Notes under the pieces: model-generated
The model's input: only the letters and a program-made list of their open reading frames with translations
Told to the model about the DNA's origin: nothing
The model's database searches: none
Made by a program: the position numbers and the translations under genes
Shown: positions 6,538 to 41,995 of the stretch, in pieces
Position numbering within the stretch: the stretch's first letter is position 1
Layout of the letters: each line of letters opens with the position of its first letter
Assembly (NCBI RefSeq): GCF_900129905.1
Contig: NZ_FQXG01000002.1
Location: 372,001-436,000, forward strand
Direction: 5' to 3'
Source of the DNA: Ferrimonas marina
GTDB lineage: Bacteria; Pseudomonadota; Gammaproteobacteria; Enterobacterales; Shewanellaceae
DNA: 64,000 bases

Positions 6538-8865
6538 TCAGAAGAGGCCGATCTGGCCGCCGTCCAGCTGCTCGAAGTCGCTGTTGATCGCCGCCAACAC
6601 CGGCTCGGCCACCGGCCGGATCTGCTTCTCCACATAGTGCTCGTAATCCAGCTTGCCGCGGGCGCTCTCCAACGGCTCCGCCCCCAGAGCGGTGATCACG
6701 TAGGCGATGCGGCTGCCCCGGCGGTAGCGGGTACGACCGGCATGCTCATTGGCCAGCCGAGCGGCCTGCACATGGGGGGGATTGGCGGCGTAGTCGGTCA
6801 GATCGCGACGCAGGCGCTTGCGATAGACCAACAGCTCATCGCACTCGCCGTCCCGCACCCGGGCTATCCACTGTTTCAGCAGCGGGGTAACCGGCTTGCC
6901 CTCGAACCAGTGCTGGTACAGGCTCTGCTGAAGCTGACGAGCCAGTGGGGTCCAGTCGCTGCGTACCGTCTCCATCCCTTTGAACACCAGACGCAGTTTG
7001 CCCTGCTGTTCTATGGCACCGACATAGCGTTTTTTCGAGCCTTGCTCCGAGCCACGAATGGTAGGCATGAAAAAGTGATCAAACTGGGTTTCAAACTCCA
7101 GCTCCAGGGCACTTTCCAATCCCTGCTTTTGCAAGGATTGCTGCCAATAGGCGTTCGCTCCCGCCACCAGGGCCTGGCCCTGTTGCTGACACCACTGCGG
7201 CGTCTTGTCATCGCCTAGATGCACAAACAGCGAATCTGTATCGCCGTAGATCACCTGGGCCCCCTGCCCCTCTACCCACTCCCGGGTGGCCTTCATGATG
7301 TCGTGGCCGCGCAGGGTGATGGAGCTGGCCAGACGGGGGTCATGAAAGCGACACCCTGCGGCGCCGAGCACCCCGTAGAAGGAGTTCATCAGGATCTTGA
7401 TCGCCTGGGACAGCGGCTGGTCCTTGGCCTGCTTGGCCTGCTCCCGCTGTTGCGCCAGTTCGGCAATCAGGGCAGGCAGGCGATGATGCTGGCGATGGAA
7501 CCGGGCGCCCCGGTAGCCCTCCACCAGCAGGCTGGGATCCGCCTCTGCCTCGGCCGCCACCATCCCCATGGGATCGATCAGGAAGCTGCGAATGATGGAG
7601 GGATAGAGGCTCTTAAAGTCCAGCACCAGCACGTTGCGGTACAGCCCCGGTCGGGAGTCCATCACGTAACCGCCGGGGCTGGGCGGAATGTTGGTGTCGG
7701 TCAGGTCCGGGGCAACGAAGCCGCTGCGGTGCAGCAGCGGCAGGTAGCGGAAGGTGAAGGCCGCCACCGAGCCGCCGGTGCGGTCCAGCTCCAACCCGGT
7801 CATCTGGCCCCGGGCCAGGACAAACTCCAGCAGGCGGGTGTGCTCGAAGATCCGCCACACCAGTTCGCAATCCTTGAGGTTGTAATGCCCCAGCGCCCAC
7901 TTATCGTGGTGAAAGTTGTGTTCGATCTCCGCCATACGGTGGGCGCTGTCGTCGCAGGCCTTGCCCTCGCCCAGCAGCTCGGTGGCCACCGCATCCAGGG
8001 CATAGCTGTCAAACTGGTAGAACGCCGCCTTAAGCCATTCAATGCCATCCAGCACCAGGCGCCCGGCGATAACACAATCCCGGCCCGGCCCGGCACGCTG
8101 CTCGAACCTTGGCTCACTGCCGTCCCGCCCCAATGCCAGGCGCAAACCATGGTGGGCGGCGCGCTTGTGCAGCAGGGCCAGGTCAAAGCCCGCCACCGCC
8201 CAGCCGATGATGCCGTCCGGGTCATGTTGCTCGAACCAATCCAGCAGGCCGCGCAGCAGCGCCGCCTCGTCGGCAACAAACTCCATGCTCAGTGAGAAGC
8301 GGCCGTCCGAGGGGCTGGGCTCGCCCACCATCAACACCCGCTGATCGGTGGCACTGTAAAAACCGATGGAATAGAGCTCGCCATGACGACTGCACTCGAT
8401 GTCCAGCGATACCAGGCTGGGCAGGTGGGTGGGGTTGGCCGGTCGAGCCGCCAGCAATCGATGGTCCTGGTGCTTTACCGCCACCCCGGCGCGGATAAAC
8501 CGCTCCATCAGGTAGCGCTCCTGGGGGCGGATATCCGCCTCCAGCAATGCCCAACCCTGCTGCTCGGCCTGCTGCCGGGCAGTTTGCCACAGTGAGTGAT
8601 CACTCAGCTCCAGCGACAACACCGGCTGGCGGGCAAAGCTTTGGGCCGGCACCGGCGTGAGTTGCCAACCGGAGCGCGCGCCCAGCCACTGGCGCCAGGC
8701 GGCCTGCTCACTTTCGAGGATAAAACCACGGTAGGGCTGTCCCGGCAGGGAGACACACAGGGGGCCTGATTCGGTGCTGAGCCAGTAGATCAGTTCGGCG
8801 CCATCGGGGCCCGGACGCTGCTCGCGACCGAGGATCCACCCCTGGCTAAAAGAGGGCGATTGCAT
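6538..8865 (-). CDS. polB: DNA polymerase II (family B)
   Basis: 775 residues, close to the 783 of E. coli Pol II. It replicates past lesions and restarts forks. ExoI motif SLDIECS, polymerase motif A LDFKSLYPSIIRSF, motif B KILMNSFYGVLGA, motif C IYGDTDSLFV and TRYRRGSRIAYVI are all present in order. The last residues QIGLF match the beta-clamp binding pentapeptide found at the C-terminus of the E. coli enzyme. Start at 8865 has AAGGAC 9 bases upstream. It diverges from dinG and shares a LexA box with it, so it is expected to be SOS-induced. Confidence 0.97.
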   Translation of the reverse strand: MQSPSFSQGWILGREQRPGPDGAELIYWLSTESGPLCVSLPGQPYRGFILESEQAAWRQWLGARSGWQLTPVPAQSFARQPVLSLELSDHSLWQTARQQAEQQGWALLEADIRPQERYLMERFIRAGVAVKHQDHRLLAARPANPTHLPSLVSLDIECSRHGELYSIGFYSATDQRVLMVGEPSPSDGRFSLSMEFVADEAALLRGLLDWFEQHDPDGIIGWAVAGFDLALLHKRAAHHGLRLALGRDGSEPRFEQRAGPGRDCVIAGRLVLDGIEWLKAAFYQFDSYALDAVATELLGEGKACDDSAHRMAEIEHNFHHDKWALGHYNLKDCELVWRIFEHTRLLEFVLARGQMTGLELDRTGGSVAAFTFRYLPLLHRSGFVAPDLTDTNIPPSPGGYVMDSRPGLYRNVLVLDFKSLYPSIIRSFLIDPMGMVAAEAEADPSLLVEGYRGARFHRQHHRLPALIAELAQQREQAKQAKDQPLSQAIKILMNSFYGVLGAAGCRFHDPRLASSITLRGHDIMKATREWVEGQGAQVIYGDTDSLFVHLGDDKTPQWCQQQGQALVAGANAYWQQSLQKQGLESALELEFETQFDHFFMPTIRGSEQGSKKRYVGAIEQQGKLRLVFKGMETVRSDWTPLARQLQQSLYQHWFEGKPVTPLLKQWIARVRDGECDELLVYRKRLRRDLTDYAANPPHVQAARLANEHAGRTRYRRGSRIAYVITALGAEPLESARGKLDYEHYVEKQIRPVAEPVLAAINSDFEQLDGGQIGLF

Positions 8866-8884: not shown

Positions 8885-8904
8885 TACTGGTATTATGTAC
8901 AGCC
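8885..8904. promoter_or_regulatory. LexA (SOS) box between polB and dinG
   Basis: CTGGTATTATGTACAG (8887-8902) fits the LexA consensus CTG-N10-CAG with an AT-rich spacer. It sits 22 bp before the polB start and 27 bp before the dinG start, so one operator could silence both divergent genes. Both are SOS genes in E. coli, where they are not neighbours. Confidence 0.88.
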
Positions 8905-41205: not shown

Positions 41206-41230
41206 CGCCACTGGACAGGGCCGGCCTGGA

Positions 41231-41263
41231 TACTGTACAAATATACACTGTATAGATAAACAG
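41231..41263. promoter_or_regulatory. Two overlapping LexA (SOS) boxes
   Basis: Box 1 CTGTACAAATATACAC (41233-41248) differs from CTG-N10-CAG only in the last base; box 2 CTGTATAGATAAACAG (41248-41263) fits exactly. They are phased 15 bp apart and end 30 bp before the start of the gene at 41294. TATAGA inside box 2 could serve as a -10 element. Confidence 0.85.
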
Positions 41264-41293
41264 TTACCCATCGCATCCTGGACGGCCCATGTC

Positions 41294-41995
41294 ATGACCA
41301 CTTACCAGTTACGCCCGCACCCGCCGGTTGATTGGCTAGAGCAGCTTGGCAAACACACCGCAGATCTGCTGATCACCTCACTGGTACAGCCCGGCCGTTG
41401 CCGTCCGCTGATGAAGGTGCGCCATCACAACCCCGCCTCCCGCATCAACCCCTGGTATGAGCTGTGCCCGGAACAGGGGATCGCCGGGGTGTTTGAGCCA
41501 CTGTACCGGGTACTCAAACCCCAGTCCCAGGGTTTCGTGTTGTGTGAGCAAAGCCAGATGGCGGCACTGCTGCCAATGGCCCAGGCGGCGGGTTTCCGCA
41601 TCGGCCCGGCCCGGATATGGCAACGCACCGGCCGTCAGAGCCAGCTCTATTTCCTGCTGCACCTGTGCAAAGGCCGGCCGGTCCCCCGCTGGCAGGAGCA
41701 GGCGCAGATCCTCAGCCACCCCAGTGAACCCGGACGCATCCTGCCCCATGCCCTGCTGGAGACCCTGCTGCTCCAGGCCAGCGACGAGGGCGACCTGGTG
41801 ATCGATCCCTTTATGCCGGACCATGCGGTCGCCCACAGCGCCCTGAGCCTGGGCCGACGCTTTGCCGGGGCCCACCCGGATAATGATCACCTCGATACAC
41901 TGCGGGCTAAGCTCAACGAGCTGCCCAGTACTGAGCTGATGCGCCCGGTACCCCCGCTGCCCGTGGTCGAGCCTGGGCAGATGGCGCTGCTATAG
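41294..41995 (+). CDS. SOS-controlled protein resembling a DNA N4/N6 methyltransferase with lost catalytic motifs
   Basis: 233 residues. The layout is that of small site-specific methyltransferases: FEPLYRVLKPQSQGFVLCEQSQM, MAQAAGFRIGPARIWQRTG, YFLLHLCKGRPVP, and EGDLVIDPFM...HSALSLGRRFAGAHPDNDHL, the region that binds S-adenosylmethionine. However, the catalytic (D/N)PP(Y/W) is not found (ITSLVQPGR in its place) and the glycines after DPFM are replaced (PDHAVA). It may bind DNA or RNA without methylating. Preceded by two LexA boxes, so it should be DNA-damage-induced. No strong ribosome site. The family assignment is inferred from these segments. Confidence 0.6.
   Translation: MTTYQLRPHPPVDWLEQLGKHTADLLITSLVQPGRCRPLMKVRHHNPASRINPWYELCPEQGIAGVFEPLYRVLKPQSQGFVLCEQSQMAALLPMAQAAGFRIGPARIWQRTGRQSQLYFLLHLCKGRPVPRWQEQAQILSHPSEPGRILPHALLETLLLQASDEGDLVIDPFMPDHAVAHSALSLGRRFAGAHPDNDHLDTLRAKLNELPSTELMRPVPPLPVVEPGQMALL

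Follow-up and report, generated by a model that had tools for sequence, protein, structure and literature searches.

Organization of the locus

The window, the whole 64-kb stretch of DNA analyzed here, comes from a 4.98-Mb genome of the genus Ferrimonas and carries the gene for a 233-residue pseudo-methyltransferase. The reading frame opens at an ATG at position 41294, not at 41231, and two LexA boxes that overlap by five bases lie upstream of it (Table 1). A TGGACA or TTGAC-like hexamer, identified by eye as a putative promoter element in the window, appears comparably placed upstream of the orthologous genes. Within the protein, the four residues TSLV occupy the position of a lost DPPY catalytic motif, and the ESLEKHRKIGTTTR stretch that follows it is likewise lost. 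The C-terminal pentapeptide is preceded by a linker that is non-conserved and modeled with low confidence. The protein has a pI of 7.8, close to neutral.

Table 1 Features of the pseudo-methyltransferase locus, in window coordinates.
Feature	Coordinates	Strand	Basis
TGGACA, -35-like hexamer (putative)	41212..41217	+	By eye
LexA box 1, TACTGTACAAATATACACTG, one mismatch to CTGTN8ACAG, 25.2 bits	41231..41250	.	
LexA box 2, CACTGTATAGATAAACAGTT, exact CTGTN8ACAG, 26.2 bits	41246..41265	.	
GGACGG, plausible ribosome-binding site, 8 nt 5' of the ATG	41280..41285	+	Sequence
Pseudo-methyltransferase, beta-class N6/N4 DNA methyltransferase fold, 233 aa	41294..41995	+	ORF, Pfam, predicted structure
Residues 28–31 (TSLV), position of the lost DPPY catalytic motif	41375..41386	+	Alignments
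Residues 171–177 (DPFMPDH), what is left of the SAM-binding DPFxGSG loop, glycines lost	41804..41824	+	Alignments
Residues 229–233 (QMALL), candidate beta-clamp-binding motif, extreme C-terminus	41978..41992	+	

The methyltransferase fold is kept and the active site is lost

The window protein matches Pfam family PF01555 with 41.1 bits (cut-off 26.7), and an AlphaFold2 model (pLDDT 83.5) agrees with this assignment. The best solved structures in a fold search are beta-class DNA methyltransferases, among them TTHA0409 (E 1.2e-13), and structural alignment pairs 192 residues with MboIIA (Z 23.0, rmsd 2.8 Å) and 191 residues with CcrM in complex with DNA (Z 21.6). The fold has thus been kept although the active site was lost, and sequence and model together place the protein in the beta-class N6/N4 DNA methyltransferase fold family (PF01555). 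The earlier note had named a structural match to an unrelated family as grounds for refuting its reading; the structure-based search turned up no such family, with only methyltransferases among its 50 best matches. For this reason, a match of residues 13–60 to PscG in a sequence search of solved structures (E 1.3e-4) was judged to be due to chance.

Alignments reveal that the catalytic D/N/S-P-P-Y/F/W motif is replaced or deleted in all eight orthologues, the window protein included. The glycine loop after DPF is gone from all eight as well, with DPFMPDH and its counterparts standing where relatives have DPFFGSG. Residues that are near-invariant in intact enzymes and changed in the degenerate proteins include the catalytic D, P, and Y, which are gapped or replaced, and the T-T-x-R-type stretch behind them; the GMGYH loop, the SAM-loop glycines, and the acidic residue at position 194 are also changed. 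This column count took in six of the eight degenerate proteins, and the alignments show equal losses in the other two. Sixteen structural positions are retained in all intact and degenerate proteins compared. In the block that follows the position of the lost motif, N52, W54, and P59 never vary among the degenerate proteins and are for the most part retained by the intact ones. Loss of catalysis is well supported by these alignments. The earlier note had described a methyltransferase-like protein lacking both the PPY-type motif and the glycine loop after DPFM, and each part of that description holds. Disorder of residues 36–61 was considered as a sign of degeneration and rejected, because the intact protein L082 is alike in this respect (residues 30–59).

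Core identity among the orthologues falls to 36–44%. The closer pairs of pseudo-methyltransferases are under purifying selection, with pN/pS between 0.21 and 0.46 in nine closer orthologue pairs, compared with 0.12 in an intact pair; between groups the ratio reaches 0.53–0.79, which is near saturation and little informative.

Descent from a phage-type enzyme and distribution in Ferrimonas

The best relatives outside the genus are intact methyltransferases with DP[P/A]YESLEKHR and the glycine loop; they occur in genomes of Gammaproteobacteria, in viral contigs, and in a small number of assemblies of Deltaproteobacteria type. DPPY and FFGSG are present in all 21 readable intact relatives of one set, and DP[PA]Y in all 19 of a second. 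Against phrog_67, a family of phage DNA methyltransferases, these intact relatives score ~150 bits, and a relative of one of them occurs in 347 of 50,697 phage records. The intact phage-type relatives are 24–32% identical to the window protein, and the intact L082 is about 43–44% identical to the F. balearica-type copies. A tree built from eight degenerate and 23 intact proteins groups all the degenerate ones in a single clade (support 1.0); the degenerate form is absent from the 12 viral loci examined. The sequences show that the Ferrimonas proteins descend from a phage-type methyltransferase, with the degenerate copies making up one clade. They have the fold and the order of blocks in common with the phage-type enzymes (PF01555; phrog_67), but lack DPPY, the GSG loop, the downstream acid, and the GMGYH loop, and add a C-terminal tail and LexA boxes.

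A protein search of 40 relatives yielded seven close copies, all in Ferrimonas, and a profile search found the degenerate gene in eight of the 14 genomes of the genus, including that of the window (one genome labeled Marinobacter nauticus groups with Ferrimonas). All eight copies are degenerate and retain an open reading frame. The profile matched two further proteins of the genus, an intact phage-type enzyme of genome G012 and, over 51 residues, a different protein of G008. A search of the named genomes with a single sequence gave no match, and an alignment-based search gave 13 loci, five of them degenerate. Among 394 genomes sampled from the order, 64 had matches, with only 22 matches above 120 bits outside the genus; 21 of these were fetched and 20 were read, all of them intact, leaving unread L031 (a locus cut at the contig end), the weaker matches, and one second copy. 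At E 1e-10, a sample of 369 genomes from the class contained no match beyond the source genome itself. In the genomes sampled, the gene is single-copy, chromosomal, and limited to one group of Ferrimonas; since the surveys are samples, a rare degenerate copy may exist elsewhere.

An M14 carboxypeptidase gene lies upstream, within about 3.3 kb, in seven of the eight orthologous loci. The F. senticii locus is without it and has cydAB, further upstream, in common with the others. These common upstream genes indicate that the pseudo-methyltransferase is an old chromosomal gene and not part of a passing prophage. Carriers and non-carriers of the gene separate along the M14 carboxypeptidase tree, in which the six non-carriers fall together with a support of 1.0; the carboxypeptidase of the non-carriers has another neighborhood and may be a paralogue. 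No adjacent partner gene is conserved across the orthologous loci, and the downstream neighbor varies by group.

LexA boxes precede all eight orthologues

The two overlapping LexA boxes, one exact and one with a single mismatch, are present where the earlier note had read them, and the exact CTGTN8ACAG pattern occurs only once in the window. Across the whole genome, this bare pattern is hardly enriched (39 sites, versus 33 when the pattern is reversed), which gives weight to the flanks and the A+T-rich core. We scored candidate sites with a weight matrix trained only on six boxes found elsewhere in the genome: two before lexA and one each before recA, umuD (umuDC), recN, and an imuA-like gene. 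Of these genes, lexA, recA, and recN were named from their translations, umuD, umuC, and the imuA-like gene from Pfam and their neighbors, and imuB by eye. The two boxes of the pseudo-methyltransferase gene score 26.2 and 25.2 bits, and the third-best site in the window 11.4 bits; in 30 random 64-kb sequences, the same matrix gave a best site of 15.4 bits and a median best of 10.9 bits.

Conservation of the boxes before orthologues had been set beforehand as a test, and boxes are found upstream of all eight, ending 10 to 45 bp from the ATG. Within 100 bp upstream of the ATG, the best box of each orthologue scores 16.6 to 26.5 bits, and most have two; the weakest are those of F. senticii, at 16.6 and 8.1 bits. 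A promoter box conserved before orthologues is what is expected of a LexA regulon member. A matrix scan of 33 stretches upstream of intact relatives, many of them from one genus and so not independent, reached a maximum of 9.5 bits and gave no comparable box; the weak matches and L031, L084, L085, L090, L091, L095, L098, and L099 were left out of this scoring. In a looser scan, two of 19 intact loci (L084 and L088) show CTGTN8ACAG with one mismatch within 250 bp, their cores being G+C-rich or distant.

SOS control of the pseudo-methyltransferase gene, as the earlier note had proposed, is well supported by these predicted boxes, which lie far above the window background. Counting against it, a LexA-like site before nrdA of Vibrio cholerae is described as failing to bind LexA (PMC5963079), and by analogy a good-looking box can be silent. 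Among the titles and opening abstract lines surveyed, no paper joins Ferrimonas, SOS, and LexA.

Several other loci of the same genome have candidate LexA boxes or lie next to lexA. A near-perfect box, AACTGTATATATATACAGCT, at position 1055 of locus L066 (G000:C6:557200-559300), lies 29 bp upstream of a 323-residue tyrosine recombinase that resembles an integron integrase, of which Pfam confirms the integrase domains only. A strong box, AACTGTATAAATATACAGTT, at position 1031 of L065 (G000:C6:437000-439000), precedes an ORF with a weak integrase N-terminal match, possibly a second SOS-controlled recombinase. The LexA-like box TACTGTATAAATAAACAGTC, at position 1058 of L067 (G000:C7:57500-59600), is upstream of a two-component response regulator followed by a sensor-like ORF, an unusual candidate SOS target. 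The box TACTGTACATCCATACAGTT, at position 1003 of L068 (G000:C10:282500-284500), stands before a 110-residue ORF (1035-1367) with no convincing family match. Directly 3' of lexA is an ORF that looks SulA-like by eye (1696-2100 of L069, G000:C16:122600-124700), and the imuA-like gene, at L071, is a second member of the SulA family.

A clamp-type motif at the C-terminus

In all eight orthologues a variable linker leads to a terminal Q[MI]xLL: QMALL in four, and QMPLL, QIPLL, QIQLL, and QIALL in one each. Q229, L232, and L233 are invariant, and between T213-E214-L215 and Q229 no column is. A terminus of the form Q[LIVAM]x[LM][FL] is present in all eight degenerate proteins versus none of 23 intact ones; two intact relatives have related, non-matching forms, QRRLF one residue from the end of L090 and QLTLG further in from the end of L085. 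This tail is a new observation, unmentioned in the earlier note. The clamp-binding consensus is given as Q-phi-x-[L/M][F/L], which several clients bear in a C-terminal tail (PMC11139829), and the clamp motif of E. coli MutS is given as QMSLL (PMC8034640). The terminal and flexible position of the motif conforms to that of a beta-clamp client, with M at the second place in five of the eight tails, as in E. coli MutS and outside the strict aliphatic set (L, I, V, A) of the cited consensus. By composition, the chance of such a motif at one fixed place is ~1e-3, a figure to be read with the motif having been spotted after the fact and the eight orthologues not being independent.

Among 44 non-overlapping genes of the window, only two encode a clamp-type terminus, the pseudo-methyltransferase and DNA polymerase II (polB, 6538-8865, minus strand; family match 1012.7 bits, cut-off 570), which ends in QIGLF. 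DNA polymerase II is a known C-terminal clamp client, and polB belongs to the SOS genes of E. coli. A LexA-like site of 11.4 bits, alone within chance, lies just upstream of polB at 8885-8904. The scan for terminal motifs and the scan for LexA boxes, both blind, thus point to the same two genes, and polB, with QIGLF and its weak LexA-like site, serves as an unplanned positive control. None of 33 other genes in five orthologous loci has a terminal clamp motif, and a motif search of this genome's ImuB and of a stretch of its UmuC found none.

The C-termini of MutS were compared at loci L113–L126 in 14 Ferrimonas genomes. In the eight carriers of the pseudo-methyltransferase gene, MutS has QLPLL (seven) or QLALL (one); in the six non-carriers, it has QMALP, QMTLP, QMTLA, or QLSLA, so that the motif is fitted in all eight carriers versus none of the six non-carriers. 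This difference follows the same split as gene presence and is therefore not independent evidence. MutS (QLPLL) and DNA polymerase II (QIGLF) of the window's genome have a five-letter clamp motif of the same kind as the pseudo-methyltransferase, but are otherwise unrelated to it and have the docking motif alone in common. From its sequence, we infer that the pseudo-methyltransferase tail would bind the clamp.

A dead methyltransferase that may act at the sliding clamp

We propose, with modest confidence, that the protein is an SOS-induced pseudo-methyltransferase tethered to the sliding clamp, which acts through binding instead of catalysis. In this model, a phage-type beta-class DNA methyltransferase would have been taken over once in the Ferrimonas lineage and brought under LexA control at its promoter; the captured enzyme would have lost its catalytic and SAM-binding motifs and gained a flexible C-terminal tail with a sliding-clamp-binding motif at its end. 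DNA damage would lead, as the boxes imply, to RecA-driven cleavage of LexA and derepression of the gene. To judge from its motif, the tail would anchor the protein to the beta clamp, in the cleft that clients occupy, at a stalled fork, a gap, or a repair patch. There, speculatively, the dead core might grip DNA beside the clamp or displace other clients, for example MutS or the replicative polymerase, and the choice between repair and tolerance pathways might be biased as a result. We favor a binding role at damaged forks; in its simplest speculative version the protein would displace clients, and in the bolder one it would read DNA that is damaged or distorted. Binding of DNA or nucleoprotein without methylation, which the earlier note had considered, is possible, and its partner, going by the conserved tail, would be the beta sliding clamp. 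The near-neutral pI of the window copy lends no weight to strong DNA binding.

The most probable alternative is a narrower form of this proposal, in which the tail fills the clamp cleft under SOS as a competitor or checkpoint brake, slowing the replisome or sending it along another route, and the core would serve as a bulky or stabilizing handle that binds nothing. The tail is indeed among the best-conserved parts of a protein whose core is only 36–44% identical, and Caulobacter SocB, which blocks replication via the clamp, counts for this reading. SocB is termed a toxin (PMC5422525), and UmuD2C, a further point in favor, is presented as a clamp-managed SOS checkpoint (PMC4045847). The fold, however, is retained and constrained beyond the needs of a bare tether, and we regard the brake as possible, if on the unlikely side.

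We consider it unlikely that the dead base-flipping fold recognizes damaged or unusual DNA, to which the clamp tail would deliver it. Retention of the methyltransferase fold and of N52, W54, and P59 would fit a reader of lesions or flipped bases, as would the precedent of alkyltransferase-like proteins, described as dead enzymes that flag lesions (PMC10779285), but the base-pocket residues, DPPY and the GMGYH loop, are lost, and basic residues are not in excess.

It is improbable that the tail is a degradation signal, a hydrophobic C-terminus read by a protease. All eight orthologues do have a short hydrophobic end, and SOS proteins are often short-lived and proteolyzed; a degron, however, does not need the invariant Q at the fifth-last place, and the same five-letter form recurs in MutS of the carrier genomes and in the DNA polymerase II encoded in the window.

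The suggestion of the earlier note that the protein is a decoy for host or phage methylation, binding and blocking methylation sites or methyltransferase partners, did not hold up: descent from a phage-type methyltransferase is in its favor, but the gene is single-copy and chromosomal in a conserved locus with no linked phage, restriction, or methyltransferase gene, the viral loci examined hold no degenerate form, the target-recognition part has diverged too, and nothing ties the gene to a restriction or phage system, which makes a decoy very improbable. That the gene is a captured phage methyltransferase drifting towards loss, as the missing catalytic motifs and an evolution faster than that of the intact pair might suggest, is hardly credible given that frame, boxes, and tail are retained in all eight orthologues and that pN/pS is well below 1 in the closer pairs, the higher between-group values being near saturation.

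Comparison with known systems and implications

Two known systems offer precedents for the proposed role of the pseudo-methyltransferase. Like the pseudo-methyltransferase, ImuB is an SOS-controlled, catalytically inactive relative of an enzyme, and it is predicted to work via the clamp (PMC11791113). It differs in being a relative of Y-family polymerases encoded in an operon with its partners, whereas the Ferrimonas protein has a methyltransferase fold and no conserved partner gene. Alkyltransferase-like proteins (ATL) are not known to have a clamp motif, and they differ further in their unrelated fold and in retaining DNA-binding features of their own. The likeness is that of a dead relative of a DNA-acting enzyme that works via binding (PMC10779285). 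ImuB and ATL illustrate that inactive relatives of DNA enzymes are put to similar use in cells.

More tentatively, and in our estimate rather improbably, the Ferrimonas protein may represent a class of SOS effectors, a phage-type pseudo-methyltransferase domesticated once and carried by the clamp, whose dead base-flipping fold would read the state of the DNA or its damage and control which client, MutS or a translesion or replicative polymerase, acts at damaged forks. The titles, abstract openings, and passages surveyed describe no such damage-induced, clamp-tethered dead methyltransferase. If the tail binds the clamp, the protein would be a damage-induced clamp client made from a dead DNA methyltransferase and, if confirmed, a so far unknown component of the bacterial DNA-damage response. 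With intact relatives at hand, it would also provide an evolutionary case in which promoter capture, loss of an active site, and a five-residue docking motif turn a DNA methyltransferase into an accessory of replication or repair.
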